This document shows, piece by piece, positions 11,949-52,818 of a DNA stretch of 64,000 nucleotides. The stretch spans positions 1 through 64,000 of the forward strand of contig CAMDKM010000013.1 of assembly GCA_945900965.1 (NCBI GenBank), read 5' to 3'. Within the stretch, counting starts at the first letter, position 1. The number at the start of each line of letters is the position of its first letter. The translations under genes were made by a program, and so were the position numbers. The DNA comes from Bordetella parapertussis (GTDB taxonomy: Bacteria; Pseudomonadota; Gammaproteobacteria; Burkholderiales; JACQAP01). A model generated the notes under the pieces. It ran no database searches and was not told the origin of the DNA. It worked only from the letters and a program-made list of their open reading frames with translations.

Positions 11949-13853
11949 TCAGTCGAACCCGCGCCCCTGGGCGCTTCTGACGCCGTGCAGGATGGACTGC
12001 GCCACCACTGTTTTATCCACCTGGTCGACAAACTTGACCTGGTTCGCCTTGACCAGACTGGGCACTTGTTTATATTCGAGGTGACGTCGCAAAGCGGCAT
12101 GCACGTGGCCACGCATCATTTTGACGTTCAGCGGCTTGTTCAAGTAACGGAAAATCTGCGCATGGTTAATCAATTCGATCACTAGTTTCGAATCCGAAAC
12201 ATCGGTCACCACAATGGATAAAAGCTGCGGTATTTCCTGCTTCAGTAAATTGAGCATCGCGGTCAGCCGACTTCGGCCAATATCGACATCGGTGATCAAC
12301 GCGGCGATTTCTCTTTTCCGCATGACCTCCAGTGCCGCGTCGAGGTCTGACACATAGATGACCGGACACAGATCGCCAACCAGTTGACGCACTACTCGAA
12401 AGATTTCCTCGTCCTTATCGAGTACCAGCAGACCGGCGTCCATCTGTTGCGGCAAGTCAGCCACGCTGGATCTTGTGTCCGCCAGTTCCAGGGCGATAGT
12501 CGCCGCCTCGGCCACGACGACGCGGAGGTCCGCATTGTCCCAAGGCTTGCTGATAAAGCGATAGACTTCGCCGTCGTTGATCGATCCGACGATTGCCGCA
12601 AGATCCGAGTATCCGGTCAACAATACACGCACGCTGCGTGGCGAAATTTCGCGGGCCCGCCTGAGCAGCTCAACACCCAGCATGGCCGGCATGCGCTGAT
12701 CGCTGATAATCACATGCATGAAGTGCCTGCTTATGAAGTCGAGCGCCTTGTGACCATCGGTGGTGGTAAAGACGTGATATCGATCGCGAAACAGGGATTT
12801 GAGTGCGGTCAGGATTCGCTCTTCGTCGTCCACCAGCAGCAGGCGGACTTTTTTGACGCTGTCGTCGAGCTGGATGGCACTTTCTCCGGGAGCGGCAAGC
12901 CGGGATTCCGCGGCCGGCATTGTACTGGCGCGGGCGGTCGGTGCCGATTGAAGCAGCCTCGCCGCACTGAGCAGGGCAGCGCCGTTCGGTATCGCGCTTC
13001 CGGGTGCGGATTTCGAGCGATCGGGACTCAGCGACGCCTCGATCGCGTTGCGCAATGCTTCGGAGAATTCCCTCGCGCTTGGAAAACGGTCGGCTTTATT
13101 CTTCGCCATCGCAACTTGTAGCACACGGTCGATATGCGGTGACAACTTGGGATTGATGCTGGAAGGGTTTTCCGGCACCTTGTTCATGACGTACTGCATG
13201 AGTTCAACCGAGCCGCCAATGAAAGGTTTCCTGCCAACCAGCAGCTCGTAGGCGATTACGCCGATTGAATACAAGTCCGCCAGCGAGTCGACTTGGGCGC
13301 CTAGAAACTGCTCGGGCGACATGTAGTGCAGCGTGCCCAGCACGTCACCTATTTGGGTAAGCGCGGACGCCTCGGTCCTGGCGATACCGAAGTCGCCGAG
13401 TTTGATGCCTCCGTCCTTGTTTACCATGATATTCGACGGCTTGACGTCCCGGTGCACAACCCCTTCGCCGTGCGCATGGGCGACGGCATCGAGCAACTGA
13501 CGGATAATTTCCCAACCTTCGCGGACTCCGTACGCGCCACCCTGTGTAAGGTGCTCCTTCAGGGTTTTGCCATTGACCAGCTCCATGACGATGTAGGCGA
13601 TATTCTCGTCTTCGCCGTAGTCGTAAATTTGCACGATGCACGGATGCACCAGCCGGCCGGCGGCGCGGGCTTCATGCCGGAAGCGACCGACAATATGCTG
13701 GAGCTCCGAGGGATCAAGCTCCGACTTGACGATGACCTTGATCGCCACGCCGCGCTCAATCGCGGCATCGAACCCCTTGTACACCACCCCCATGGCTCCG
13801 CGCCCCAAAAAAGCCCGGATTTGGTATTTGCCGATCTTATCTGGCAGCGTCAT
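11949..13853 (-). CDS. Ser/Thr protein kinase fused to two receiver domains
   Basis: 634 residues. A Hanks-type kinase fills residues 8-270 with every key residue: K39 (VAIK), D136 (HRDVKPSN) and D154 (GDFG). A linker follows, then receiver 1 at 336-455 with DD at 342-343, phospho-acceptor D385, T413 and K436; its SDQRMPAM and RFISKPWD motifs are those of RpfG-type receivers. Receiver 2 (about 474-590) keeps D522/D524 and K573 but is more divergent. There is no DNA-binding or HD domain. The gene follows the histidine kinase by three bases, so the receivers are probably its targets. This would let a two-component phosphorelay steer a Ser/Thr kinase, which is inference. Confidence 0.93.
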   Translation of the reverse strand: MTLPDKIGKYQIRAFLGRGAMGVVYKGFDAAIERGVAIKVIVKSELDPSELQHIVGRFRHEARAAGRLVHPCIVQIYDYGEDENIAYIVMELVNGKTLKEHLTQGGAYGVREGWEIIRQLLDAVAHAHGEGVVHRDVKPSNIMVNKDGGIKLGDFGIARTEASALTQIGDVLGTLHYMSPEQFLGAQVDSLADLYSIGVIAYELLVGRKPFIGGSVELMQYVMNKVPENPSSINPKLSPHIDRVLQVAMAKNKADRFPSAREFSEALRNAIEASLSPDRSKSAPGSAIPNGAALLSAARLLQSAPTARASTMPAAESRLAAPGESAIQLDDSVKKVRLLLVDDEERILTALKSLFRDRYHVFTTTDGHKALDFISRHFMHVIISDQRMPAMLGVELLRRAREISPRSVRVLLTGYSDLAAIVGSINDGEVYRFISKPWDNADLRVVVAEAATIALELADTRSSVADLPQQMDAGLLVLDKDEEIFRVVRQLVGDLCPVIYVSDLDAALEVMRKREIAALITDVDIGRSRLTAMLNLLKQEIPQLLSIVVTDVSDSKLVIELINHAQIFRYLNKPLNVKMMRGHVHAALRRHLEYKQVPSLVKANQVKFVDQVDKTVVAQSILHGVRSAQGRGFD

Positions 13854-13856
13854 GAA

Positions 13857-15617
13857 TTAGCTCTCGATTTGTGCATCAGCCGGTGGTTTCATCGGTAGGT
13901 GAACACTAAACAAGCTGCCTTTGCCCGCGTGCGACCGCACCTCGATCCGACCGCCGTGCTGCTGAACAATCTTGTACGAAATCGACAGACCCAGGCCGGT
14001 TCCCTTGCCGATTTCCTTGGTGCTGAAAAATGGATCGAATATCTTCGGCAGCACATCGGGTGGAATGCCCCTGCCATTGTCCAGCACCTCGACGGTGACA
14101 CCGTCCTTATCGCTACGCGTCGTCAAGGTAATGGTGCCGCCGTCATTGTTCATGGCTTGTGCGGCGTTGGTAATCAGGTTGAGGAACACCTGGTTGATCT
14201 GTGAAGGCGAACACACGATATCGGGTATCGCCCCGAATTTCCTTTCTACCGTAACGGACTTCAGCAGATGCTTGGCAAGCAACAGAGTACTGGAAAGCCC
14301 GTCATTGAGATTGAAGGGCGTTACCTTGCTGCGGTCCAGCCGGCTGAAATCTTTGAGATTTCCGACAATGTCGGCCATCTGCCCGGTACCGTAAACGCCG
14401 TCGTTCACCAATGTGGACAACTCATTGACGACACCCTGACTTTTAAGCGAGCTAATCTGCCGCGAAACCACGGCAAACTGACGCGCCAGTTCCTCAGCGC
14501 TGCCGGCATCTCCGCCCTGCAACAAACTTAGCAGTCGCTCCGTGTCGTCGAGCGCGCTCCCCAGTTCGGGGAGTTTTTCCGCTACTGTCCCCAGACTGTT
14601 TTTAACGTAGGCCAGGGGCGTATTGATTTCGTGCGCCACGCCAGCAACCATCTGCCCGAGCGAGGCCATTTTCTCCGACTGAATCAGTTGCGTTTCCGAC
14701 TCCTTGAGGTGACGCAAGGCGTCCGAGAGCTCGCGAGTGCGCTCTCGCACGCGGTGTTCGAGGCCTACGTTGGCCGCGCGCAGTTTTGCACCCAGCCAAC
14801 CGAGAAGGATCAGCAACGCCCCCGCGTACGCAATCAGATAGACCCGGAACAATTCCTTGCCTTGCAGTGTGGTTTCCAGTTCGCGGTTAAAGGACAAAGT
14901 GAGTCCATCGAGCTGGGGCCCCGAGGTCAGGACCTCCAGGTGCCCTATGAGCTCTTGTTCGGCCAGCTTGCGCTTGAGTAGATTAATGCCGGCCTCGCGG
15001 GTTTTCTGTGCAGCGGCCAGCAATGGTTCTGGCATTGTCGCAATCGCGACTTCAAGTTCGCCCAACGCAGCTTCGAAATTACCTGACTGCGCCTCGCTCA
15101 CCAGCCAGAAATAAAGCGATGCCCCGCTCACCAGCCGGTTGATCAGCGCATCGAGCCCTGGCCGCCCTCCTTTGAGATTGGCCGCCTGAGCGCCGAGGTC
15201 CCGCGCGTTGCCGACCAGGTCGTTCAGGGCGGCTTTGGAGGCCGTATTTTCCCCTCTGAACTTTTCCACAAGCCGGGCCTTTTCCGTAATTGTCTTGTTC
15301 AGTTCCGGAAGGCTCTTGCTCAATGGCGTCCCAGGATTTGCCCGTGCCTCCAACTCCAGCGCACGCAGCGCCCTAAGTGCGATCGGGCGACGATCTATGG
15401 GAGGCGAGGACGCATTGTCCGGCTCCAGGCTCGCCCGCAATACATCGACATCCCAGCGCCCGTCGATTTCCTTCAGCTCGCGCAGCAGACCGAGGATTTC
15501 GTGTTCTCCGCGCAAATCCACAGCTTCGGTTTTGATGTACAAGAAAACCAGCAAGACAATCATCGCCACAGAGCCTGCGCCAAACAACACATTCTTGATG
15601 ATTTCTGGTCGGTTCAT
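13857..15617 (-). CDS. Sensor histidine kinase with DAHL-like periplasmic domain
   Basis: 586 residues. One TM near 10-28, an all-helical extracytoplasmic region 30-255 and a second TM at about 258-276 frame the sensor part. The sensor has the [18 protein letters not shown] and LVEKFRGEN motifs I associate with DAHL (double all-helical ligand-binding) domains. A coiled coil leads to HisKA with H329 ([14 protein letters not shown]). The HATPase domain has an N-box ([10 protein letters not shown]), DNGRGIP and GTGLGLS. It lies three bases ahead of the kinase/receiver gene and 85 bases behind a kinase/cNMP-binding gene, so all three may be one transcript. Confidence 0.93.
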
Positions 15618-15702
15618 AGGTCGGTAGTTGAATTTCCGGGATGGGCAATCACGATGCGGGACTCACGGTTCGCGCTTTGGGCAATTGTAAATTGGCGGGC
15701 TT

Positions 15703-16977
15703 TCAACGTCCAAGCTGGATCACTCGGGTGTTCGACATGGCCAGACGATCTGTCAAGGTACGTAGCAATGCATTGGCGAAGCGCGTCTGACAGCCTTGGC
15801 TGAATGTATCGAGGGAGCCGCGCTGAATTTCGACAACCAATACGTCGGTAGCGGCCACCACCGTGGCCTGACGCAGCGCCGGCAATGCCTGAACATAGGC
15901 CATTTCCGCAAAACATTCGCCTGCCCCGATCACATTGAGGAGTCGCCCGTCCCGGGTTACCTTGAGTTGACCCTCGGCCAACAGATACATGCTGGCGCCT
16001 TCGTCGCCTTCGTTCAGAATGGCAGTCTGTGCCGGATGGCGGGTCCATCTGCCGGCACGCAGCAATTCCCAGATTTCGGCATCGTTGAACTCGGCGAGAA
16101 ACTTCATGCGCCTTAGCGACTGGAATTTCTCGGTGTCGGGAACCCGATTGACAAAAACACTCAATCTTCCGGCATCAGCCAGCGCCAGCGCGAATTCGGC
16201 CCAGCCGGGAAATCGCCGTGCCGGATTTTTGGCGAGCGCACGAGTCACAATGGCATCGAATTGCGCCGGCAATTGGGGATTGATCCGACTCGGCGGTAGC
16301 GGCTCGTGACGCAGGATAAGGCTAAAAATTTCCGGGACACTGCCCGCCTTGAAAGGCTGAATGCCGGTGGACATTTCATACATCAGCACACCCAGCGAAA
16401 ACATGTCGCTTTGTTGGGTAGGCGACTGGCCGCTGACCTGCTCGGGGGATTCATATAGCGGCGTGCCAATGTTGGAAATCTGAGTAACGTTTGCCCGATG
16501 GAAATAGGCAGCCCCGAAATCGCTGACTTTTACCCCGCCATCATCGGTGATCATCACGTTGGCTGGCTTGATATCACGATGCACGATCCCGTGCCGCCCC
16601 GCGTATTCCAACGCACCGCAGCACTTGAAGGCGATTTCGATGATGTCGTCGAGAAGCATCGGAGTGCCGGGCACGAGCCTTTCGGACAATGTTCCGCCCG
16701 ACACATACTCCATGGCAATATAACCATGATCGGCGTCCACCGCGGCCTCAAGAATCTTGACGATGTGCGGGTGGTCGAGTTTGCCGGCCAGCGATGCCTC
16801 GTTCATGAACTGCCGCATGCCAATCGCGCCCAAATCCGGATCGTTAAGGACCTCCGAGTCGATAACTTTTAATGCCACCTCGCCGCCCGAAAACGTGTCG
16901 AGCGCCAGAAAAACCTTCCCGGATGCGCCCCTACCCAGCAGCCTGCGGATCTGATATTTGCCAAGTGTTTCGCGCAC
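15703..16977 (-). CDS. Ser/Thr kinase fused to a cyclic-nucleotide-binding domain (copy 1)
   Basis: 424 residues from the GTG at 16977, which has GGGAG eight bases upstream; a TTG just before it is also in frame. The numbers here count from that TTG. The kinase (about 7-270) is complete: K38, D136 in HRDIKPANV, D154 in SDFG. A conserved linker, VPDTEKFQSLRRMKFL, leads to a CAP_ED-type domain (about 292-400). Its phosphate-binding cassette region reads GECFAEMAYV...ALRQAT, keeping the Gly-Glu and an Arg. There is no membrane segment. Kinase-then-cNMP order is opposite to eukaryotic PKG. Two paralogues lie at 26.4 and 37.6 kb. Activation by cAMP is inferred from the domain and from the cyclase at 50.6 kb. 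Confidence 0.93.
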   Translation of the reverse strand: MRETLGKYQIRRLLGRGASGKVFLALDTFSGGEVALKVIDSEVLNDPDLGAIGMRQFMNEASLAGKLDHPHIVKILEAAVDADHGYIAMEYVSGGTLSERLVPGTPMLLDDIIEIAFKCCGALEYAGRHGIVHRDIKPANVMITDDGGVKVSDFGAAYFHRANVTQISNIGTPLYESPEQVSGQSPTQQSDMFSLGVLMYEMSTGIQPFKAGSVPEIFSLILRHEPLPPSRINPQLPAQFDAIVTRALAKNPARRFPGWAEFALALADAGRLSVFVNRVPDTEKFQSLRRMKFLAEFNDAEIWELLRAGRWTRHPAQTAILNEGDEGASMYLLAEGQLKVTRDGRLLNVIGAGECFAEMAYVQALPALRQATVVAATDVLVVEIQRGSLDTFSQGCQTRFANALLRTLTDRLAMSNTRVIQLGR

Positions 16978-17046
16978 CAAATTTCTCCCTCAAACCTGGC
17001 CTGCTTGTGCGGAGCCACGATTATGCGTTACCAGCAAGTTTACGGT

Positions 17047-18552
17047 TTAATCGGCGCCCTGCATTTCGGTTTCCAGTTCGGCCAATTGAGGCAGCGACAA
17101 TTCGATGCCAAGGAGGGTCCATGCCTTGATTTCCGATCGCAGCTCTGTCGCTGTAAGTGGATTCGCTTCCAGCCACCCCTGATCCAGCTCGATAACAAAA
17201 CTCGATTTTCTGCGCGAGGCATGAATTGACGGCAGGCGCGCATCGGTACGACTGCGGTTGAGCAGTACCGCCACGCGCATTGCCACCAGCAGGGACCAGT
17301 CGAATTCGTTGCGCACCAGCCCGCGCAGTTTGGACAGACCGCCGCGATGCGCCAGCACCAGCATGGCCAGGTGCTGTTGCTCCATTTTCGAGAATCCCGG
17401 CATGTCGGCGTTGGCAATGATGTAGGCGGAATGTTTGTGAAATCCGCTATGCGCCACCGACAAGCCGATTTCATGCAGCCGGGCGGCCCAGGACAACAAC
17501 ATTCGCGGAGATTCGATTTCTTCCCCTGGCAGGTTGGAAATATCCGAGTAGATTCTCAGCGCCAGTCGTTCCACCCTGTGGGCATGCATGGAGTCCACAT
17601 GGTAACGCTTCATAAATTGGCGCACCGTCTGCTCGCGCATGTCCCGGCGGTGGGCACGGCCAACCATGTCCCAAAGTATTCCCTGGCGCATTGCGCCATT
17701 GGCCAGCGCCATTTGTTCGACGCCAAGCTCCTCGAAAATGGCGTTCATGATGGCAAAGCCGCCTGGCAGTACGGCAACGCGGTCGTCGCGCAAACCGGGT
17801 AGTGCCACGCGGTCCAGATGCCCCGCCTTAATCAGGGAGGCGCGCAGCCGCTCCATTCCCTCTCGGTTAAGGTCGCCGGCACTCCAGCCGTTGGCGCCCA
17901 GGATATCGCCGATCGCGCGCGCCGTTCCGGAGGAGCCGATCGCCTGCTGCCATTGTTTGCGGGAGAACAGCTTCTTGATGGTTTCCAGCTCAATCCGCGC
18001 GGCAAGTTCGGCCTGCCGCAGATTGGCTTTCGAGAGCCGCCCGTCCTCGAAATACTTGAGGGTGTAGCTCACGCAGCCCATGTACAGGCTTTCCAGACGG
18101 TGTGGCTGATGGCCTGCACCAATAATGAATTCGGTGGAACCGCCACCGATATCCACCACCAGACGTTTTTCCTGGGTAACGGGCAAACTATGCGTTACAC
18201 CCAGATAGATCAGGCGCGCTTCTTCCCTGCCCGCCACCACTTCAATCGGGAACCCCAGCGCCGCCTCGAAGCGCGGAATAAATTCCCGGGCATTTTTTGC
18301 CACCCGCAGTGTATTGGTACCGACAGCCCTTACCGCGCCAGGTGGAAGCCCGCGCAAACGCTCGCCAAACCGTTGCAGACAATCTATGGCGCGCGCCTGC
18401 GCGATTTCATTCAGTAGTTTTTCGGGTGTCAGTCCGGCGGCGAGCCTGACCGGTTCGCGCAAGGAATCCAGCGGGTAAACCTGATCGTCATCGATACGAG
18501 CCATCTGCAGCCGGAAGGAATTGGACCCCAGATCGACGGCCGCAATCGTCAT
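17047..18552 (-). CDS. ppx: Exopolyphosphatase (Ppx/GppA family)
   Basis: About 501 residues from the ATG at 18552, preceded by GGAAAG; an ATG four codons earlier is possible. The actin-like ATPase fold is marked by DLGSNSFRLQMARI near the start and VDIGGGSTEFIIGAG further on. A C-terminal HD-like helical region (LLSWAARLHEIGLSVAHSGFH) is typical of long Ppx proteins. The enzyme removes phosphate from polyphosphate, or converts pppGpp to ppGpp. It follows phoU on the same strand, a common pairing that links polyphosphate to phosphate signalling. Confidence 0.93.
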   Translation of the reverse strand: MTIAAVDLGSNSFRLQMARIDDDQVYPLDSLREPVRLAAGLTPEKLLNEIAQARAIDCLQRFGERLRGLPPGAVRAVGTNTLRVAKNAREFIPRFEAALGFPIEVVAGREEARLIYLGVTHSLPVTQEKRLVVDIGGGSTEFIIGAGHQPHRLESLYMGCVSYTLKYFEDGRLSKANLRQAELAARIELETIKKLFSRKQWQQAIGSSGTARAIGDILGANGWSAGDLNREGMERLRASLIKAGHLDRVALPGLRDDRVAVLPGGFAIMNAIFEELGVEQMALANGAMRQGILWDMVGRAHRRDMREQTVRQFMKRYHVDSMHAHRVERLALRIYSDISNLPGEEIESPRMLLSWAARLHEIGLSVAHSGFHKHSAYIIANADMPGFSKMEQQHLAMLVLAHRGGLSKLRGLVRNEFDWSLLVAMRVAVLLNRSRTDARLPSIHASRRKSSFVIELDQGWLEANPLTATELRSEIKAWTLLGIELSLPQLAELETEMQGAD

Positions 18553-18726
18553 GAAACTTTCCATCGCGACATTGTGCCTGAATTCGGAGACTCAACGCGA
18601 TGCACATGCGGGAAAAACACGGGCCCGGGAGTCCTGTCCGAACATTCAGGGCTGCAATGGTGAATGGGGCTCCGAGATAGCTATCCGGCAGCAGTCGTAC
18701 GCCTCGGACCTTGTTCTGGCACGCCG

Positions 18727-25844: not shown

Positions 25845-26468
25845 TTGATCGATTTATATACGTGGAGCACACCCAACGGTCGCAAGGTTTCCATCATGCT
25901 CGAAGAGCTTGGTCTAGCCTACCAGGCCCATGCCATCAATATAGGCAAGGGCGACCAGTTCAAACCCGAATTCATGGCAATCAATCCGAACAGCAAAATT
26001 CCCGCGATTGTGGATCATGACGGGCCGCAGAAAAAACCCTTTGTGTTATTTGAATCGGGCGCGATTCTGCTCTACCTGGCGGAGAAACACGCTCGCTTTC
26101 TTCCAGAAGCAGGTGCTGCGCGTTATGAAGTTTTGCAGTGGCTGATGTTTCAGATGGGTGGTGTCGGACCGATGTTCGGTCAGACGCATCATTTCCTGCG
26201 TGCCGCACCGCAGCCCGTCGAGTATGCCATCCATCGTTACAGCACCGAAACCCGGCGCCTGTACGCAGTGCTCGACAAACATCTCTCGAAACGCGAATGG
26301 CTGGGCGCCGATTATTCGGTGGCCGATATTGCGACCTATCCCTGGATCGCGCGTCACGAATGGCACAAGGTCGATCTGGCGGATTTTCCCGCGGTCAAGC
26401 GCTGGTTCGAAACGATCGGTGCGCGCCCGGCGGTTCAACGAGGCATGAATGTGCCCCCCCCCCGCTGA
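25845..26468 (+). CDS. Glutathione S-transferase, YfcG/YghU type
   Basis: 207 residues from the TTG at 25845 (IDLYTWSTPNGRKVSIML), chosen because GGAG lies seven bases upstream and homologues begin exactly here; another TTG at 25809 is in frame. The motif TPNGRK is the thiol-binding turn of YfcG-type disulfide-bond oxidoreductases, followed by INPNSKIPAIVD and FESGAILLYLAEK. YfcG and YghU reduce disulfides with glutathione. The last codons are encoded in a run of ten C that also encodes the start of the kinase gene; see the overlap entry. Confidence 0.88.
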   Translation: MIDLYTWSTPNGRKVSIMLEELGLAYQAHAINIGKGDQFKPEFMAINPNSKIPAIVDHDGPQKKPFVLFESGAILLYLAEKHARFLPEAGAARYEVLQWLMFQMGGVGPMFGQTHHFLRAAPQPVEYAIHRYSTETRRLYAVLDKHLSKREWLGADYSVADIATYPWIARHEWHKVDLADFPAVKRWFETIGARPAVQRGMNVPPPR

Positions 26469-27774
26469 GCCGACGAAGCTCCCGCCCCTGGGCCTGGGCG
26501 TCCCGGCGAAAATCGGCAAATACCCGGTGATCAAGGAGGTCGGCCGCGGGGCGACCAGTCGGGTCTATCTTGGGCGCGATCCTTTTGCCAAGCGCGAGGT
26601 CGCCATCAAATTGATGAACCTCGATGATAATTCCGGAACCGACACGCTCAGACGTTATCACAAGGCATTTCTGAACGAAGCTTCGCTGGTTGGCAAGCTG
26701 AATCATCCGCATATCATGGCCATCTACGATGCCGATGCGACGGAAGAGTACAGCTATATCGTGATGGAGCATGTGAACGGATCCACCCTCGAAGATTACA
26801 CCGAGGTGGACAAATTGCTCCCGATCGAGCGCGTCGTGGAAATTGCCTTCAAATGCAGCCTCGCCCTGGAATACGCCTATCGCCACGGCGTCATTCATCG
26901 CGACATCAAGCCCGCCAATATCCTGATCAGTGCACAAGGTGATATCAAGATCAGCGATTTTGGCGTGGCATTGCAAAAAGGGGCGGAGCACACACACTTG
27001 CAAGGCGTTGGCTCGCCATCCTATATGTCGCCCGAACAGGTACAGGACAAGGAGTTGAATCAGCAGACCGACATCTATTCCCTGGGCGTGGTGATCTATC
27101 AGTTGCTCACCGGAAAACTGCCGTTCGTCGGTGCGAACAAGGCGAGCCTGCTCTATCAGATTCTGAATATCGATCCCCAACCGCCTTCCCTTCACCGTAC
27201 CGACATTCCCGCCGAACTCGACAAGGTTGTGATGCGTGCCCTGATCAAGGATCCGGCGGCGCGGTTCCAGGTCTGGACCGAATTCAGCCGTGGCCTGACG
27301 CAAACCTATCGGCATCTGGAAATGCCGCCGGATTCCATTTCCGACACCGAAAAATTCAACTCCATCAAGTCGCTGGCGTTTTTCCGCGGCTTTCGCGACG
27401 TGGAAGTCTGGGAAACCGTCCGCATCGCGACGTTCCGGCGCGTTCCGCCAGCCACGTCGGTTATCCGCGAAGGCGACGTGGGGGACAGCTTTTTTGTCAT
27501 CGTGTCGGGGGAAGCCCAGGTCAGCCAGGATGGCCACTCGCTCGACCAGCTCACGACAGGCGCTTGTTTCGGCGAGATGCTTTATTTCGAAGAGGCACAG
27601 AGCAAGCGCGGCACATCGATATCTTCGGTATCTGCACTGACGGTGGTGGAGATCAAGGCAGCGGCATTGCAGAAAGCCTCCGACACTTGCCAGAATCAGT
27701 TCAATCAGGCGTTTCTACGAGTCCTCATCAACCGCATGGCACGGGTGAATAGCCAGTTGTCGAAGCGTACTTGA
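26449..27774 (+). CDS. Ser/Thr kinase fused to a cyclic-nucleotide-binding domain (copy 2)
   Basis: 441 residues. The kinase has K54 (VAIK), D152 (HRDIKPANIL) and D170 (SDFG). The family linker ISDTEKFNSIKSLAFF joins it to a cNMP-binding domain whose cassette reads GACFGEMLYFEEAQSKRGTS. The closing LINRMARVNSQL matches the C-terminus of the other copies. The ATG at 26449 has GAGG five bases upstream but lies inside the GST gene, and the first codons read through ten C residues. A different run length would either break this frame or join it to the GST. Its protein begins with an atypical Pro-rich leader (CPPPAEPTKLPPLG). Confidence 0.92.
   Translation: MCPPPAEPTKLPPLGLGVPAKIGKYPVIKEVGRGATSRVYLGRDPFAKREVAIKLMNLDDNSGTDTLRRYHKAFLNEASLVGKLNHPHIMAIYDADATEEYSYIVMEHVNGSTLEDYTEVDKLLPIERVVEIAFKCSLALEYAYRHGVIHRDIKPANILISAQGDIKISDFGVALQKGAEHTHLQGVGSPSYMSPEQVQDKELNQQTDIYSLGVVIYQLLTGKLPFVGANKASLLYQILNIDPQPPSLHRTDIPAELDKVVMRALIKDPAARFQVWTEFSRGLTQTYRHLEMPPDSISDTEKFNSIKSLAFFRGFRDVEVWETVRIATFRRVPPATSVIREGDVGDSFFVIVSGEAQVSQDGHSLDQLTTGACFGEMLYFEEAQSKRGTSISSVSALTVVEIKAAALQKASDTCQNQFNQAFLRVLINRMARVNSQLSKRT
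26454..26463 (+). repeat. C10 homopolymer at the GST/kinase junction
   Basis: Ten consecutive C bases lie in the 20-base overlap of the two genes. With ten, the GST ends at 26468 and the kinase starts separately at 26449. With nine, the GST frame would run straight into the kinase frame, giving one GST-kinase-cNMP protein. The length is at the limit where polymerase slippage is frequent, and also where assembly errors occur. Confidence 0.8.
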
Positions 27775-37574: not shown

Positions 37575-38879
37575 TTAGAAGATTGTGATCTTGCGATCAA
37601 GCAACAACTGCGACATGCGTGTGTTGGCCGCTTCCAGTCGACCGACCAGCAAGCCAAGAAATGCCGCGTTGAATGAATGCCGGCAGCCTTCCGTTGCTTC
37701 AGCGAGGGACTCGGCTCGCAATTCGATCAATGTAAGGTCACTGACCGCCGTAACACTAGCGGTGCGTTTGAACGGGCGCTTCCCCAGGGAAGACATTTCC
37801 CCGAAACATTCGCCAGTTCGCAGGACGTTCAGCAATTTATCCTGTTTGGAAATTTTTACCTCCCCTGTGACAATCACGAAGAATGAGGTGCCCACTTCCC
37901 CTTCGGTGAGCATCACGGTGCCAGCGGAAATACGCAGCCAGTTCGATATCCTCAACACCTGCCAAAGATCGACATCGGGAAACGGTTGGAAAAAATCCAA
38001 ATCCCGCAGGATTTTGAATTTCTCCGTCTCTGGAACGGCCTCCTCGGGCTTCTGGAGGGTGCTAAACGTATCGCCCAGTGCCTTGGCAAACTCATCCCAG
38101 GTCTGAAAGCGCTTTGACATTTCCTTTTCCAGCGCTTTCTTGGTGATATGGTCTATGATCGAGGGAATTTCCGGCCGCAGAACACTGGGCAAGGCCGGAT
38201 CGACGTTGATGATCTGGTAGACCATGCTGTAGTTGTTGGCCGCCTTGAAAGGCAGGGAACCGGTCAACAGTTGGTACATCACCACTCCCAATGAAAAGAT
38301 ATCGGTCTGATGATTGAGCGGCGACTCCTGCAATTGCTCGGGAGACATGTACGCCGGCGACCCGATACCCGATACCTGCGTGGTTTCGCTGGCGAGCGTC
38401 AAGGCTGCCCCAAAATCCGAAATCTTGATGTCGGCGTCTGCGGTGAGAAGAATATTGGCAGGCTTGATATCGCGATGAATGATGCCGTGCTGGTGGGCAT
38501 ATTCGAGCGCCTTGCAGCACTTGAAAATGATTTCGACGACACTTGACACCGGTAACAGATTCTCCGGCACGGTAAAGGGATCCAGCGTTCCTCCCTCTAC
38601 ATATTCCATCACCAGATAGCTGCCGTGTTCGTCGGATACGGCGTCGTAAATGGACGCGATATGCGGATGGGAAATTTTGCCCGCCAGAGATGCCTCCACA
38701 AGGAACAGTTTTCTGAACCGGCGCCCCTGTTTGCTATCTCCCAACGCATCCGCGCGAACCAGCTTGATCGCCACCATGCGGTCCGCAAAGGCATCATTGG
38801 CCAGGTAGACTTCGCTGGTCGCCCCCCTTCCAAGCTCCTTGATGATTTCGTATTTTCCGATGTTCTGCATCGTCGCCAT
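37575..38879 (-). CDS. Ser/Thr kinase fused to a cyclic-nucleotide-binding domain (copy 3)
   Basis: 434 residues from the ATG at 38879, with GGAA seven bases upstream; an upstream GTG and a downstream ATG are alternatives. The kinase has K39 (VAIK), HRDIKPANIL and SDFG. The linker VPETEKFKILRDLDFF leads to the cNMP domain with cassette GECFGEMSSLGKRPFKRTAS, the closest of the three copies to the classic GE..L......RTA pattern. The C-terminal VGRLEAANTRMSQLL matches the others. It ends 19 bases before the rhodanese gene on the same strand; whether they share a transcript is unclear. Confidence 0.93.
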   Translation of the reverse strand: MATMQNIGKYEIIKELGRGATSEVYLANDAFADRMVAIKLVRADALGDSKQGRRFRKLFLVEASLAGKISHPHIASIYDAVSDEHGSYLVMEYVEGGTLDPFTVPENLLPVSSVVEIIFKCCKALEYAHQHGIIHRDIKPANILLTADADIKISDFGAALTLASETTQVSGIGSPAYMSPEQLQESPLNHQTDIFSLGVVMYQLLTGSLPFKAANNYSMVYQIINVDPALPSVLRPEIPSIIDHITKKALEKEMSKRFQTWDEFAKALGDTFSTLQKPEEAVPETEKFKILRDLDFFQPFPDVDLWQVLRISNWLRISAGTVMLTEGEVGTSFFVIVTGEVKISKQDKLLNVLRTGECFGEMSSLGKRPFKRTASVTAVSDLTLIELRAESLAEATEGCRHSFNAAFLGLLVGRLEAANTRMSQLLLDRKITIF

Positions 38880-39038
38880 TGATGAATTCCGGGCAGCCAC
38901 GTCTTTGTCCGCAACTATGATAGGAAATTCGCCGAGGCAGCGCGAGGATTTCGGCTAAATAATCGGTCTATGGTCAGGGCTGGCTACGGCGGTCCAGCGC
39001 GGTAACATGCTAAAACATCGTCGATTATGCGGTGGGAT

Positions 39039-45651: not shown

Positions 45652-47304
45652 TTAATGACGCAGTTTGTCAGAGCGGGCTATACCAAGCAGACGGGCCTCA
45701 TCGACCTGATCAATCTGCTCGGGATCGAGAAATTGTTGCGCGTATTTCAGATAAACCTTTTCACGCACAAAAATATCGAACAGGTCTGGGTCGATGTGCC
45801 CGTTGAGGCGGAAATTGCCCAAAATACGCAGCGATTCACTCAGCGTCTTGCCCTTCTTGTAGGGCCGGTCCTTGGCGGTCAATGCCTCGAATATGTCGGC
45901 AATGCCCATCACCCGCGCCTGTACCGACATCTGTTCACGTTTCAAACCTCTGGGATACCCCTTGCCGTCCATGCGTTCGTGATGGCCTCCGGCATATTCG
46001 GCGACATTTTTCAGATGTCTCGGCCAGGGCAAGGACTCCAACATCCTGATGGTCACCTCGATATGGTGATTGATGACCTGCCGCTCTTCCTGAGTCAGAG
46101 TACCGGACCGAATAGTCAGATTCTTCAGCTCGTCATCGCTGAGGAAATCCACCCGATTGCCGTCTACATCCCGCCATTGATAGCTGCGAGACATTTCTCG
46201 AACCCTCAGCAGATCCTCGTCTCGCATGGCTTCTGCCCCGAAATTACAGGCACGCAAGAATTGCCGGTCCTCGTCGATCTGCCGAATTCTGGCTAGGAAC
46301 GCCCGTTCGCTGCGCTCTCCCTCTCCATCAGCCTGACCCGAAGACTCGAGCCTTGCTTTGAGCATGGCGATCTCGGCGTCGCGCTTGAGTACCTCGAACC
46401 GGGTGTCGACCAGGCCGATGCGGTCAAAAATAGTCTGCAGCTTGGTCGCCTTGTCCACGACGTGAACCGGGGTGGTGATCTTGCCGCAGTCGTGAAGCAG
46501 TCCGGCGATTTTTAGTTCATAACGATCTTTATCGTTCATCGAAAAGCCGGCCAGCGGGCCAGCACGGGTGTTGGACACCGCATCGGCCAGCATCATGGTC
46601 AGCGCCGGAACCCGCTGGCAGTGTCCGCCGGTGTAGGGCGACTTGTCGTCGATGGCGGCATTGATCATATTGATAAACGACTCAAACAGGCTTTCCAGCT
46701 GATTGATCAGTTGTCGATTGGTCAGCGCCACGGCCGCCTGTGACGCCATGGATTCGACAAGGTGCTGGTCAGCCTCGGAGAACGCAACGATCTGGCCATT
46801 GGTGCGATCCTTGGCGTTGATCAACTGCAAGACGCCGATGATTTCGTCCTCATGATTCTTCATTGGAACGGTCAGAAAAGACTTCGATCGGTAACCGGTC
46901 TTCTGGTCGAAGTTTTTGGTTCCGCTGAAATCGAAGCCCTTTGCGACATAGGCATCGTCGATATTGACCGTTTCATCCTGCAGTACCGAATACGCCACCA
47001 CCATGGAATTGTTGGGTGCTCCGTTGTCGTCGTACAGACGTACCGGATAAAACGGCACATCCACACCGGTGGTGCCGCCCATCGCGGTATTCAGGGAATC
47101 GGTACGTAGAATTTCGAAGTAAACCAGTTTTTTCTCGGCATCTACCCGATAGAGTGTTCCGCCGTCGGAATTGGTGATTTTTTTGGCCGCCAGCAAAATA
47201 GCCTCAAGCAGACGATTGGTATCCTTTTCCCGGGACAGGGAAATGCCGATCGAGTTGAGTTCTTCGAGTCGGCGAAATAGCTCCGCCGCAGTGGAGTCGC
47301 TCAT
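45652..47304 (-). CDS. GAF-HD-GYP c-di-GMP phosphodiesterase
   Basis: 550 residues from the ATG at 47304; the frame is open upstream inside the previous gene. An N-terminal GAF domain has RSKSFLTVPMKNHEDEIIGV and LINAKDRTNGQIVAFSEAD. The HD-GYP domain shows LLHDCGKITTP (about residue 270) and GHHERMDGKGYPRGL (about 440), the full catalytic set for c-di-GMP hydrolysis. An extra insert of about 100 residues with charged helices lies between HD and GYP. It follows the PilB-like ATPase by 43 bases. Confidence 0.93.
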   Translation of the reverse strand: MSDSTAAELFRRLEELNSIGISLSREKDTNRLLEAILLAAKKITNSDGGTLYRVDAEKKLVYFEILRTDSLNTAMGGTTGVDVPFYPVRLYDDNGAPNNSMVVAYSVLQDETVNIDDAYVAKGFDFSGTKNFDQKTGYRSKSFLTVPMKNHEDEIIGVLQLINAKDRTNGQIVAFSEADQHLVESMASQAAVALTNRQLINQLESLFESFINMINAAIDDKSPYTGGHCQRVPALTMMLADAVSNTRAGPLAGFSMNDKDRYELKIAGLLHDCGKITTPVHVVDKATKLQTIFDRIGLVDTRFEVLKRDAEIAMLKARLESSGQADGEGERSERAFLARIRQIDEDRQFLRACNFGAEAMRDEDLLRVREMSRSYQWRDVDGNRVDFLSDDELKNLTIRSGTLTQEERQVINHHIEVTIRMLESLPWPRHLKNVAEYAGGHHERMDGKGYPRGLKREQMSVQARVMGIADIFEALTAKDRPYKKGKTLSESLRILGNFRLNGHIDPDLFDIFVREKVYLKYAQQFLDPEQIDQVDEARLLGIARSDKLRH

Positions 47305-47347
47305 AAGAGAAAAGTAGGCAGCCTTGACCGAATGATTCCTATGCCGA

Positions 47348-49732
47348 TTACTTGATACACACCGCACGAACCTGATGCATGTCGGTAATGCCTTGCAAGA
47401 CCTTCTCGATACCATCCTGTTTCAAGGTACGCATGCCCTCCGCAAGAGCGGTGGCGACGATCTCCGCCACTCGCGAGTGCTCCTGGATATGTTTCTTGAC
47501 GGCATCCGTACCGATCAACAGCTCATGGAGGCCGACTCGCCCCTTGTATCCCGTGCCACCGCAGGTATCACAGCCCACCGGGGTATAAAGCGTGAACTGC
47601 CCCTTGTCGTTGGCGAACAGCTTAGCCCATTCCTTGTAGACGGCCTCGTACGCCACTTTCGGGTCGCGTTTCCAATACTCGGTGTTTTTGAGTTCAACAC
47701 TGTATTCCTCGAGAATAGATTTCATCTCCTCCTGAGTGGCCGTGTGAGGCGCTTTGCATTTGGAGCAAAGGCGTTTGCCAAGACGTTGCGCAAGAATTCC
47801 CAGCAGCGCATCGGAAAAATTAAACGGATCCATCCCCATGTCCAGGAGCCGGATAATCGACTCCGGCGCGCTATTGGTGTGCAACGTGGCAAATACCAGG
47901 TGGCCGGTAAGTGATGCCTCGATGCCGGTCGAGGTGGTTTCCTTGTCGCGCATTTCGCCAACCATGATGATGTCAGGATCGGCCCGCAAAAAAGCTTTCA
48001 TTGCCACCGCGAAGGTCAGACCGGCCTTCGGATTCATCTGTACCTGGCGCAGGCCCTTTTGGGTAATTTCAACCGGGTCTTCGGCGGTCCAGATCTTGGT
48101 TTCCGGCGTGTTCAAGTGCCCCAGAACCGAGTGCAGCGTCGTGGTCTTACCGGATCCCGTCGGGCCGCAGACGAAAAATAATCCATAGGGCTTGCTGACC
48201 GTATCCTTGAGATTGCCAAGATTGCGCTGGGAAAGCCCCAGTTTCTCCAGAGGAATGGGCTCTCCGCCGGCCAGAATACGCATGACGATATCTTCGACGC
48301 CGCCGGCGGAAGGTATCGTCGCGACCCGCAGTTCGATATCCAGCGGCCCGAATTTCTTGAATTTGATTTTACCGTCTTGCGGCTTACGTTTTTCGGAGAT
48401 ATCCAGATCGCACATGATTTTCAGGCGTGCGACCATGGCATTGCGATAACTGGCGGGAACGGAAATGTAATTCTGCAGAGTACCGTCCTTGCGGAAACGC
48501 ACTTCGGTTTTTCCTTTTCCTGGATAAGGTTCGATGTGAATGTCCGAAGCGCCCTGATGATAGGCGTCGACGATAATCTTGTTCACGAGCTTTACCAGCT
48601 CGTTGTCCTGAGCAAGCGACACATCGTCGTTGCCCGCCGCTCCTTCTTCATCGTTGGCATCGTCAAGCCCGGACAGCAAATCGCCGATCGAAGAATTGTC
48701 GGCGGAGACGTCCGCGCCAAACAATTGGTCGAGAGTGGCGGTAAATTCCCGCCGTGTACAGACCCGGAATACCACCTTGTGTTTCGGAAAAATATTGCCG
48801 ACCACCTTGGAGGCCCGGACCTTTTCCGGGTCCGGGCTCAGGACAACAAGCCCTTCTTTGGCGTCTTCAGTAGGGACCCATAAGCTGCTTTCGATAAAGT
48901 CGCGCTTGAGGTTTTTCAGTAAATCCATCGGCTTGATTCGATCCGCCTTGTAAGGCTCGTAGGGCACTTGGAAAAATCGCGACAGCGCTTCCCCGAGAGC
49001 GGGCGTCTTGACCTGAAATTCGTCGATCAGCACATCTTCGATATTCAGGTTCTTGCGGCGTGCCGAACGGGTGGCGAGTTCCATTTCTTCGGGCGACAGT
49101 ACCGACGTCGCTACCAGATGATCGTACCTTCCGCGCAACACGGCCGCTGGCCGGCTACGCTGCTTCAAGGCAATAGCCAGTGTTTCGCCAAGGTGCGACA
49201 CGCCTTCCTCGGCGACCGTCGAAAAGGGTTGATTTTGTTTGGAATTGATAAGTTGAACGACGCCCACGATTTCCCCACCGGAGCCGTCGAGAATTGGAGC
49301 CACCAGCATCTGTTTGGTACGGAAACCCGTACGCTTGTCCACTTCCTTGAGAAATTTCAGACTAGCATGATGAGTTCGCAACTCGTTTTCATCATAAACG
49401 TCGCGAAGGTTGATTAGTTTTTTGGAAAGCGCGACAAATCCCGCAATACTTTGCTCATTGATCGGCAGCTTGAGATCCTTGAACGAAGACAGTCCGATTT
49501 TCACCTTGGATATGATTGAAGTCTTGTCGTCTGACACGACGTAGATTGTCAGGCGGTCAGCATCGAATAATGCGCAGATATCCTGTGACAACTCCAGCAT
49601 GATCTCGTCGATATTGCTGGTCGCGTGGATTTTGTTCGTGACCGCATGGAGTTTTTTCTGGAGCTCCAGTTTGTGGCCCAAATCAGCCATATTCTGATTT
49701 GCGTGTGGCTTCGCTTCGAATACTGTGCTCAT
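47348..49732 (-). CDS. GAF-domain PilB/GspE-type assembly ATPase
   Basis: 794 residues from the ATG at 49732, with AAAGGA about eight bases upstream. Three parts are visible: a GAF domain (about 30-190; RTKQMLVAPILDGSGGEIVG), an MshEN-like domain (about 200-310), and the secretion ATPase. The ATPase has Walker A GPTGSGKTT near residue 520, an Asp box (WTAEDPVEI), Walker B (PDIIMVGEMRD), a His box and a CxxC pair (CSKCKAP, CDTCGGTG) for zinc. Typical PilB is about 570 residues and lacks GAF, so this is an expanded form that likely powers pilus extension under ligand control. Confidence 0.92.
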   Translation of the reverse strand: MSTVFEAKPHANQNMADLGHKLELQKKLHAVTNKIHATSNIDEIMLELSQDICALFDADRLTIYVVSDDKTSIISKVKIGLSSFKDLKLPINEQSIAGFVALSKKLINLRDVYDENELRTHHASLKFLKEVDKRTGFRTKQMLVAPILDGSGGEIVGVVQLINSKQNQPFSTVAEEGVSHLGETLAIALKQRSRPAAVLRGRYDHLVATSVLSPEEMELATRSARRKNLNIEDVLIDEFQVKTPALGEALSRFFQVPYEPYKADRIKPMDLLKNLKRDFIESSLWVPTEDAKEGLVVLSPDPEKVRASKVVGNIFPKHKVVFRVCTRREFTATLDQLFGADVSADNSSIGDLLSGLDDANDEEGAAGNDDVSLAQDNELVKLVNKIIVDAYHQGASDIHIEPYPGKGKTEVRFRKDGTLQNYISVPASYRNAMVARLKIMCDLDISEKRKPQDGKIKFKKFGPLDIELRVATIPSAGGVEDIVMRILAGGEPIPLEKLGLSQRNLGNLKDTVSKPYGLFFVCGPTGSGKTTTLHSVLGHLNTPETKIWTAEDPVEITQKGLRQVQMNPKAGLTFAVAMKAFLRADPDIIMVGEMRDKETTSTGIEASLTGHLVFATLHTNSAPESIIRLLDMGMDPFNFSDALLGILAQRLGKRLCSKCKAPHTATQEEMKSILEEYSVELKNTEYWKRDPKVAYEAVYKEWAKLFANDKGQFTLYTPVGCDTCGGTGYKGRVGLHELLIGTDAVKKHIQEHSRVAEIVATALAEGMRTLKQDGIEKVLQGITDMHQVRAVCIK

Positions 49733-49822
49733 GGCATCCATCCTTTTCGCTTTACGCACTTGCCGCATCCGGGTATCAGCCGGGCAACGTCCCTGGGGCC
49801 AAAATCCCCCGTGCCACTCCGG

Positions 49823-50593
49823 TCAAAACTTGAATACATGGCCATTAGCCAACATCCGTGGACTGTATTTTTCCGCAGAGTCGCCGACTTCCTGCATGAT
49901 TTGTGTGCCGGCCCCAGGCTTCAGGTGAGTCACATAGACCCGTGCTTGGCGTTTGAGCTTCGCGAGCTCTTCGACAAGCAGGCTTGGGCACAGATGTTTT
50001 GAATCTGTCGCCAGTTTTCTTTCGTTGTTTGGAAATGCCGTCTCTATGATCAGGTAACGCAGATTCTCGATCTGGTTTATTGCAACCCACAACGCGTCGT
50101 TGGTGGTCGTATCGCCCGTAAACACCAGACTGGCAGTTCCACTATCCAGTTGAAAACCGACCGCCGGCACGACGTGATTGGCTGGCAATACCACGATTCG
50201 GCGCGATCCTAGAATAACGGCGTTCCCCACGGAGAATGGAGAAAACTGCATACACGCTTTTGACGGACTGGGTATCTCGGTGAAATCCGGCCATACTTTC
50301 CAGTTGAAAATATGGTCCTCTAGGATTTTCTGGGTGGCGTGGGTGCAATGAACCGTAATAGGTGCTTCGCGCATCCCTCCCACGGTATCCACGAGGAAGG
50401 GTAACGACGTTATGTGATCCAGATGGGAATGTGTCAAAAAGACATGATCAATTTTGAGTAGTTCGGAAAGGGTCAAATCTCCCACACCGGTACCCGCATC
50501 GATGAGCACATCACTGTCCAACAGCATGGCTGTGGTGCGCAGATTTCCGCCAATTCCACCACTGCAACCGAGCACCCGTATTTGCATTGTCAT
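49823..50593 (-). CDS. Metallo-beta-lactamase-fold class II cyclic-nucleotide phosphodiesterase
   Basis: 256 residues from the ATG at 50593, overlapping the cyclase stop (ATGA). The metal motif HSHLDHITSLPFLVDTV matches the class II cAMP phosphodiesterase signature (HxHLDH followed by S/G and LL). Other ligands are in ANHVVPAVGF, FTGDTTTND and VTHLKPG. The tight coupling to a cyclase suggests it clears the cyclase's product. Specificity for cAMP is inferred. A generic beta-lactamase-fold hydrolase is the alternative. Confidence 0.85.
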   Translation of the reverse strand: MTMQIRVLGCSGGIGGNLRTTAMLLDSDVLIDAGTGVGDLTLSELLKIDHVFLTHSHLDHITSLPFLVDTVGGMREAPITVHCTHATQKILEDHIFNWKVWPDFTEIPSPSKACMQFSPFSVGNAVILGSRRIVVLPANHVVPAVGFQLDSGTASLVFTGDTTTNDALWVAINQIENLRYLIIETAFPNNERKLATDSKHLCPSLLVEELAKLKRQARVYVTHLKPGAGTQIMQEVGDSAEKYSPRMLANGHVFKF

Positions 50594-52818
50594 TTGGTGT
50601 CGAATATCCACGATCCGTCCCAACCTGGTTCCGGAGCTTGGCGCCGGAATAAGCCGATACGATCGATGTAGAGTTTATAAACTCCGTTTTCCGGGTCCTG
50701 CTTTAGCAGGTTGATCAACTGGAGTTCCGCCATGTCCCAATCCTGCGCCCGATAATGTTTCAAGGCCTGGCCCCACAGTTTCATGGCATCCTGTTGAGAC
50801 TTGGTGATTTCCGCCACCTTGCCGATAGGCTCATAAATGGAGACGGGTTCGTCTTTTCCCTTGACCCTGACCTTGTCCAGTTCACGAAAAACGACTTCCG
50901 GCACCTGTTGCCGCGTGCTGTCGCCCACAATCATGTTCACGCCGTAATGTTTGGTGATACCTTCTATGCGGGAGGCGAGGTTTACCGCATCACCCATAAC
51001 GGTATAAGCCAGCCGGATTTCAGACCCCATGTTGCCCACGCTGACGCGCCCACTGTTGATTCCTACGCCGATTTTGATGGGTGGCCAATTGTTGGCTTTG
51101 AAGTGGGGTTGGAGCTTCTCCAGCGCGTCGTGCATTTCCAGCCCCGCCATGACTGCATTGTGCGCATGCCTCTGATCGCTCAGCGGAGCACCCCAGAAGG
51201 CCATAATGCAATCGCCCATGTATTTGTCGATGGTTCCTCGGTGCTTGTAAATGATGCGGGTCAGCGGTGTTAGAAACTCATTCATCAGTTTCGATAAAGC
51301 CTTCGGATCCAGTCCTTCCGAAATAGTCGTAAATCCGCGTACGTCGGTAAAAAGCACAGACACTTCACGGCTTTCGCCTTCCATGGAAAACGCCGCCGGA
51401 TCCCGGCTCATTTCATCCACCACCTCGGGCGGCGCATATTGGCCGAACAGTCCGGTTATCTGCCGTTTTGCGCGCGATTCCACAAAAAAACCATAGGACA
51501 TGTTCAGCGCAAACAACATAGATATCATCAGCAGGCCAGACGCCAGGGGCAAAACCAGATTGCCTTCCGTCCATACCAGGACGTTGACCGCAAATACCGA
51601 CAATAAGGCAACCGCGGTCAATATAGTGGCTCGCAGGGGAGTGAGCAGCGGCAGAAGAAATGCCATACCCGTCCCGGACAGAATAAGAAGCAAGAATTCT
51701 GCCCCCATGACATAGGGCGGGCGCTGTTTGATATTTCCGTCAAGCATTCCTGCAATCAGGTTTGCATGCACTTCAACCCCGGGATATACGCTCTGGACCG
51801 GTGCCGCGCGTAAGTCGAACAATCCCGGCGCCGTCGTGCCAATCAGGACAAACTTGTTCCTTAGATCAACAATCGGCGCCGATCCGCGAAGAACCTCGGT
51901 CGCAGATACGTATTTGAAACTGCCTTGTTTCCCCCGGTAGGGGACAAGGGCGCTCACGTCGCTGTCCACTGGAATGCGCACCGCGCCGATGTCGATCCAC
52001 TCCAGCCCGGGATATTCCTTGGCCCACCGCGTTTTCTCCGGAATGCCTGGCATGACAGGCGGCAGCCCAAGTCCCAGCCTGACCATCGCCATGGACAGCG
52101 GTTCGTAATATGCTCCCTCGTATTCGGCCAGCATGGGCACGCGCCTGGTCACGCCATCCTCGTCGGTCAAAGGGGTGAAATGTCCTGCCACCACCGCTGC
52201 GTCCTGAAAGGCCTGGAGGTTTGCGCCGTAACCGCTCCATCGGGTAACAGCGATGTTCGTGCCCTTAAACGTTCCCGGGGACAACACGGGTTTGGGCAAT
52301 GCGCCAATGGCACGCCCACTTCCGTGCTGGTCCTCTGCGTTGGAAAAATAGTATCCAAGCACGACCGCGCGGTTTCTCAGCTTTTCGGCGAAAAGCCGGT
52401 CGTATTGGAGCTGGGGAGCAATATTTTTAAGCACGGACTGGTAATGGTCGTTGGCCTTGAGTTCCCCTTCCGCCAGCCTGTTTAAAACACCAAGCCCCGA
52501 ACTCTCGTCCCGTTCGGCAAACACCACGTCGAACCCGACAATTCCGACCTGATAGTGATCGAATAACTGATCGACAAGCCGTCCGAGCTTGTTTCGCCCC
52601 CAAGGCCACCGACCCTCTGCTTCGAGACTTTGTTCGTCGATGTCGACGATAACTATCCGTGGATCTATGGTCTTCGACATCGTCAGACGCAGCCGCGCGT
52701 CGTAGACAATGTTTTCGAACCGATCTATGAAAGGTATTTTGTATAGCTGGACGGCATGGCCGATAAATAAGACAACTATGACCAGGCCCAACGCTATGCG
52801 CGCGAGATGTTTCTTCAT
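50590..52818 (-). CDS. CHASE2-domain class III adenylate cyclase
   Basis: 742 residues. A first TM (about 8-24), a periplasmic CHASE2 domain (30-360) and a cluster of TMs (about 370-445) precede the cyclase domain (480-680). Metal ligands are D492 (FTDVRGFT) and D536 (MGDCIMAFW); K532 and D610 are the adenine-selecting pair, and N613 and R617 are the transition-state residues (GDAVNLASR). All point to ATP as substrate. A C-terminal tail of about 60 residues with a TPR-like helix pair follows. Signal for CHASE2 is unknown. Confidence 0.94.
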   Translation of the reverse strand: MKKHLARIALGLVIVVLFIGHAVQLYKIPFIDRFENIVYDARLRLTMSKTIDPRIVIVDIDEQSLEAEGRWPWGRNKLGRLVDQLFDHYQVGIVGFDVVFAERDESSGLGVLNRLAEGELKANDHYQSVLKNIAPQLQYDRLFAEKLRNRAVVLGYYFSNAEDQHGSGRAIGALPKPVLSPGTFKGTNIAVTRWSGYGANLQAFQDAAVVAGHFTPLTDEDGVTRRVPMLAEYEGAYYEPLSMAMVRLGLGLPPVMPGIPEKTRWAKEYPGLEWIDIGAVRIPVDSDVSALVPYRGKQGSFKYVSATEVLRGSAPIVDLRNKFVLIGTTAPGLFDLRAAPVQSVYPGVEVHANLIAGMLDGNIKQRPPYVMGAEFLLLILSGTGMAFLLPLLTPLRATILTAVALLSVFAVNVLVWTEGNLVLPLASGLLMISMLFALNMSYGFFVESRAKRQITGLFGQYAPPEVVDEMSRDPAAFSMEGESREVSVLFTDVRGFTTISEGLDPKALSKLMNEFLTPLTRIIYKHRGTIDKYMGDCIMAFWGAPLSDQRHAHNAVMAGLEMHDALEKLQPHFKANNWPPIKIGVGINSGRVSVGNMGSEIRLAYTVMGDAVNLASRIEGITKHYGVNMIVGDSTRQQVPEVVFRELDKVRVKGKDEPVSIYEPIGKVAEITKSQQDAMKLWGQALKHYRAQDWDMAELQLINLLKQDPENGVYKLYIDRIGLFRRQAPEPGWDGSWIFDTK

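Follow-up and report, generated by a model that had tools for sequence, protein, structure and literature searches.

In bacteria, the links between His-Asp and Hanks-type signalling usually consist of a Ser/Thr kinase that modifies a two-component protein. Fusions of Hanks kinases with receivers are also listed in domain databases. Described systems close to the locus reported here include the following three. In HsbR/CrsR, a receiver is combined with a PP2C phosphatase and a GHKL anti-sigma kinase (PMC6482189). Fungal Rim15 is a protein kinase with a C-terminal receiver, and the receivers are atypical in many members (PMC8510515). The cyanobacterial HstK, as it is cited in PMC1262709, unites a Ser/Thr kinase domain and a histidine kinase domain in a single polypeptide. 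A description of a bacterial Hanks kinase with receiver domains was not found in a literature search whose coverage of subscription journals was poor, which makes it weak evidence of novelty.

The locus was identified on the minus strand of a DNA stretch of 64,000 nucleotides (the window), with the transcription order ppx, kinase/cNMP gene, sensor histidine kinase (HK) gene and KRR gene (Table 1). The HK and KRR genes would probably encode a two-component system with Ser/Thr phosphorylation as its output, in which receiver 1 gates the Hanks kinase of KRR and receiver 2 serves as a pseudo-receiver. The kinase/cNMP gene is separated from HK by 85 bp on the same strand. HK and KRR are separate ORFs in the window and in the 53 relatives, and in most of the latter the intergenic distance ranges from about -4 to +37; larger apparent overlaps were an artefact of choosing the longest ORF start. 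A promoter scan at the locus gave matches no higher than the shuffled level, and a terminator scan gave 11 matches versus 8.0 (sd 2.8) in shuffled sequence.

Table 1. Positions in the window of the HK-KRR pair, its parts and its upstream neighbours
Feature	Position	Strand	Basis	Details
KRR (kinase + receiver 1 + receiver 2)	11949-13853	minus	ORF + Pfam	634 aa
KRR layout	residues of 634 aa			kinase ~8-272, disordered linker ~273-335, receiver 1 ~336-450, receiver 2 ~474-592, then C-terminal tail
Receiver 2	12078-12434	minus	conservation	D522 54/54, T550 51/54, K573 49/54
Receiver 1	12504-12848	minus	conservation	D342, D343, D385, T413, K436, 54/54 each
Kinase domain	13038-13832	minus	conservation, Foldseek	K39, HRD D136, DFG D154
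HK stop to KRR ATG gap	13854-13856	minus	ORF coordinates	3 bases
DAHL-domain sensor histidine kinase (HK)	13857-15617	minus	ORF + Pfam	586 aa
Ser/Thr kinase with C-terminal cNMP_binding	15703-16980	minus	ORF + Pfam	425 aa; TTG 16980, GTG 16977
Ppx/GppA-family exopolyphosphatase gene (ppx)	17047-18564	minus	Pfam	

Three Pfam domains were revealed in HK, all scoring above their gathering scores: DAHL (2.7e-16, 60.4 bits against 38), HisKA (1.1e-6, 29.0 against 26.9) and HATPase_c (1.7e-29, 103 against 26.4). They are arranged as TM1, an extracytoplasmic helical DAHL region, TM2, a signalling helix, DHp and HATPase, and the structure model likewise placed a helical region between the first membrane helix, at the N-terminus, and the second. 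Across orthologues, no variation was seen at H329 or in the N/G-box residues. A fold search of the sensor for clues to its ligand gave no lead: the matches listed were histidine kinase cores, except for one low-ranked BceAB-S chain, and no solved chain resembling the DAHL region by sequence was found.

KRR possesses one Pkinase domain (8.7e-51, residues 10-257) and two Response_reg stretches by Pfam. The Hanks-type catalytic set (VAIK Lys, HRD Asp and DFG Asp) is complete. Among 54 KRR sequences, namely the window and 53 orthologous loci, on which all residue conservation counts are based, K39 and D136 were kept in 54/54 and D154 in 53/54. The best fold match of the kinase was PknB (Foldseek 6i2p/5u94), while the PASTA-kinase equivalog (PknB/Stk1, NF033483) gave 301.5 bits, below the cut-off of 450, with the match confined to the kinase domain. 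The AlphaFold model (mean pLDDT 79) consists of a kinase and two receiver folds, with a low-confidence linker between them that falls below 50 at residues 297-333. Across the orthologues, receiver 1 is the best conserved domain, with a mean pairwise identity of 0.72; the kinase reaches 0.62 and receiver 2 reaches 0.56. Two orthologues (L044 8001-10166 and L070 7995-10163) are about 720 aa long versus the usual 630-640, possibly because of an expanded linker. The sequence-only reading had proposed a DAHL histidine kinase ending three bases before a gene for a full Hanks kinase with two receivers and no other output domain, and all of this was borne out by the ORF coordinates and Pfam.

Receiver 1 carries the full response-regulator set (DD, D, T/S, K) in 54/54 sequences. 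Its nearest class is the HD-GYP (RpfG/NosR-type) regulators, as had been suggested by the RpfG-like label given to it earlier; the match to the NCBIfam NosR family (E 5.4e-57, residues 338-452) stays under the cut-off of that model. In receiver 2, the full phosphorylation set is lacking across the 54 sequences, the acidic pair being degenerate. Position 480 corresponds to CheY Asp13, the residue that binds Mg directly; only 3/54 sequences have Asp there, the rest having P, S, K, Q, E or others. Mean entropy of the acidic loop was 0.08 bits in receiver 1 (DDE loop) versus 2.18 bits for its counterpart in receiver 2, whose alpha4 helix, in contrast, is conserved at 0.57 bits. Since the metal-binding acids of receiver 2 have decayed, receiver 1 is the likely switch, and receiver 2, which would have kept its interaction face, is probably a pseudo-receiver. 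Receiver 2 had earlier been called divergent with its Asp kept; the Asp is indeed invariant, but its use as a second phosphorylation site became less likely with the metal-binding acids unconserved.

HK lies directly before KRR in 53/53 orthologous loci, all of them betaproteobacterial, so the adjacency is not due to chance, although among related genomes it partly reflects shared ancestry, which counts against the preferred reading. These loci comprise 43 with full-length KRR from a genome-contig scan and 10 from genome searches; a few of the latter may duplicate organisms of the contig loci (L009/L029 and L010/L039 share identical receiver 2 sequences). KRR was detected at E<=1e-100 in 41/300 sampled genomes of the order, belonging to 19/134 genera, and in 0/3 other genomes of the window's own genus, thus its distribution is patchy. 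Across the phylum, 398 sampled genomes (E<=1e-90) gave just two matches, in the genome of the window and in another member of its order. In the plasmid search no record held a full-length copy of KRR; 20 of its 45 records were listed, and the matches in these were kinase-only and REC-REC-only. Some genomes of family f13 have a second KRR gene about 2 kb from the first, possibly through tandem duplication of the pair. Three contigs titled Chitinophaga pinensis or Bordetella parapertussis (L030, L036 and L059) carry KRR genes that fall among betaproteobacterial MAG sequences, and they look like mislabelled metagenome bins.

A Liv-type ABC transporter was the recurrent neighbour of the pair, though it is absent from the window. 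The Liv operon (binding protein, two permeases and two ATPases) is located directly upstream in 26 of the 38 judgeable loci, which are those that show a Liv gene or extend about 2 kb or more upstream. The 43 contig loci divide into 26 with Liv, 12 without it despite enough upstream sequence and 5 too short to judge. The 12 loci lacking Liv, and the window itself, count against the preferred reading. The second Liv ATPase usually overlaps or nearly touches the HK start, often by 4 bases, and the Liv-linked pair faces hemF-purD-purH. The window's genome holds a Liv operon with hemF-purD on another contig (C10, L127 4675-9574), with no HK or KRR between them; its binding protein is 70% identical to that of L028. 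Between this operon and hemF-purD lies a putative FAD-type oxidoreductase ORF (L127 2992-4317). In the KRR tree (midpoint root), Liv-linked loci occur in both main parts, so the linkage may be old and later lost in some lines, a history that fits the tree. The window KRR groups with L029, L044 and L070, all Liv-unlinked (support 85/97). The presence or absence of a Liv binding protein was discarded as functional evidence, since 219/300 genomes of the order carry one (E<=1e-80) and co-occurrence therefore says little.

Proteins homologous to receivers 1 and 2 but without the kinase (REC-REC) were also identified beside an HK, in L072, L074, L075, L077 and L078 as well as on the Agrobacterium plasmid pAt3 and the Vitreoscilla plasmid pVF1. 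DAHL is likewise present in the HK on each of the two plasmids, and in L072 the sensor is dCache. In several of these relatives the Asp of receiver 2 is replaced. On the Agrobacterium and Vitreoscilla plasmids (L128 2172-5996 and L129 2916-6804), an annotated cytochrome c peroxidase gene is located upstream of the DAHL HK and the receiver protein, the three standing in a row, which may hint that DAHL sensors respond to a redox-related signal. Judging from the kinase-free relatives of the same module, the Hanks kinase seems to be an output joined to an older HK/REC-REC system, and the likeliest history is that such a module gained its N-terminal Hanks kinase in betaproteobacteria. The opposite history, a loss of the Hanks kinase, is a less likely alternative. 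Together with the invariant adjacency and the intact residues of HK, receiver 1 and the kinase, the kinase-free modules give good support to HK and KRR as a unit, a predicted His-Asp system that would feed a Ser/Thr kinase.

The sequence-only reading had further proposed that His-Asp and cAMP control of Ser/Thr phosphorylation meet in one locus, through the kinase/cNMP gene upstream. The His-Asp part remains a supported prediction, given the conserved pairing, the catalytic residues and the kinase-free modules. The kinase/cNMP gene is indeed upstream in the window; however, neither this gene nor ppx was found beside the pair in the 53 orthologous loci, though in several of these, among them the ten short loci L009-L018, the sequence does not reach far enough upstream to show the neighbour. 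The protein itself combines Pkinase (2.2e-48) with cNMP_binding (2.8e-15) by Pfam, and as its cNMP domain retains the Glu and the Arg of the cassette, it may bind a cyclic nucleotide. These residues, the 85-bp same-strand gap to HK and a CHASE2-adenylate/guanylate cyclase gene in the window (50590-52818) all speak for HK, KRR and the kinase/cNMP protein integrating cAMP and His-Asp signals together. This is very improbable, as the window holds two further kinase/cNMP paralogues (26449-27774 and 37575-38900, making three in 64 kb), related genomes carry up to four, and the flanking kinase/cNMP and ppx pair occurs beside HK only in the window. Cyclic AMP integration through this gene was therefore rejected as a conserved feature, and the gene, tied to HK by position in the window alone, is a local neighbour and no conserved part of the system. 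A ppx-kinase/cNMP unit was rejected as well: none of 14 further kinase/cNMP loci, each covered with flanks of about 1.5 kb, showed it. Elsewhere in the window, the CHASE2-cyclase gene lies close to a CHASE2-Ser/Thr kinase gene (54538-57087), one sensor type with two outputs. At 45652-49768, a GAF-MshEN-T2SSE ATPase gene overlaps a GAF/HD-GYP-type gene, which suggests second-messenger control over a secretion or pilus motor.

Signals could also run in reverse or both ways within the HK-KRR pair, with the Hanks kinase phosphorylating HK, the transporter or the receivers of KRR itself at Ser/Thr residues; docking to HK would then be the main role of the receivers. The constant pairing of the two proteins agrees with this, and Ser/Thr kinases acting on two-component proteins are known (review PMC12189002). 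It is nonetheless unlikely, because pure docking needs none of the phosphorylation machinery that is complete in receiver 1 of every orthologue, and the HK/REC-REC module also exists without a Hanks kinase. A related question concerns receiver 2, which might be a working second phosphorylation site, either a sink or a second input, so that the protein integrates two events. The invariance of D522 would fit such a site and is the main ground for caution about the pseudo-receiver; T550 and K573 are also largely kept, and as the equivalent Asp is often lost in kinase-free REC-REC proteins, its retention in KRR may be functional. But with the CheY Asp13 equivalent nearly always replaced and the acidic loop so much more variable than that of receiver 1, a working second site is rather improbable.

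The preferred scheme, with receiver 1 as the switch and receiver 2 as a pseudo-receiver, starts from what can be read in the sequence: which domains are present, that the catalytic residues are intact, that HK and KRR are paired throughout, that the acidic pair of receiver 2 has decayed and that the Liv linkage recurs. Membrane-bound HK would sense an extracytoplasmic signal through its helical DAHL domain and autophosphorylate on His329, from which the phosphoryl group would pass to Asp385 of receiver 1. Phosphorylated receiver 1 would then alter the activity or accessibility of the Hanks kinase across the flexible linker. The autophosphorylation, the transfer and the gating of the kinase are drawn by analogy from known family behaviour; which way control runs, what receiver 2 does and which signal and substrates take part are also inferred. 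Receiver 2 would probably offer a docking or dimerisation surface by its conserved alpha4-beta5 face, in place of a second site of phosphorylation. A nutrient or ligand connected with the Liv-type ABC transporter, the apparent operon partner in many relatives, is the probable signal. As HK and the receiver-bearing kinase are inseparable in many betaproteobacteria, an outside signal would probably switch Ser/Thr phosphorylation directly instead of gene transcription. More tentative is the idea that a DAHL HK co-encoded with Liv gates the Ser/Thr kinase, through one working receiver and a pseudo-receiver, for post-translational control of transport or metabolism; the recurrent Liv neighbour offers a first hypothesis for both signal and target.

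Compared with the known systems, the HD-GYP regulators (RpfG and the NosR family) share with KRR the class of receiver 1 and the pairing of HK and regulator genes, but their output is a C-terminal HD-GYP domain, whereas KRR has an N-terminal Hanks kinase and a second, degenerate receiver. HsbR/CrsR (PMC6482189) is alike in that a receiver targeted by His phosphotransfer controls Ser/Thr-type phosphorylation and dephosphorylation. There, however, a GHKL kinase and a phosphatase are employed and HsbR is fed via HptB, while KRR uses a Hanks kinase with the HK encoded next door, and neither a PP2C phosphatase nor a GHKL anti-sigma kinase was detected in it by Pfam. Rim15 has the same succession of a protein kinase and a C-terminal receiver, but it is a eukaryotic Greatwall-family kinase with a single receiver and no adjacent HK, and the two are assumed to be of unrelated origin. 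HstK, so far as PMC1262709 cites it, also links a Hanks kinase with His-Asp signalling, yet both kinases belong to one polypeptide, whereas in the window the link is made via receivers on the Ser/Thr kinase, in separate ORFs. None of HsbR/CrsR, Rim15 and HstK has the arrangement of an HK with a kinase-receiver-receiver protein. The pair suggests a wiring opposite to the usual bacterial one, in which an HK would have a dedicated Ser/Thr kinase as its response regulator. As a two-gene system conserved over a set of betaproteobacteria, it is simple enough for in vitro work. The pVF1 and pAt3 modules match the HK-KRR pair in the architecture of HK and carry homologues of both receivers, and differ from the pair in having no Hanks kinase, a cytochrome c peroxidase gene as neighbour and a replaced Asp in receiver 2. 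Such kinase-free HK/REC-REC relatives provide a natural before-and-after comparison for the capture of a Hanks kinase as an output.
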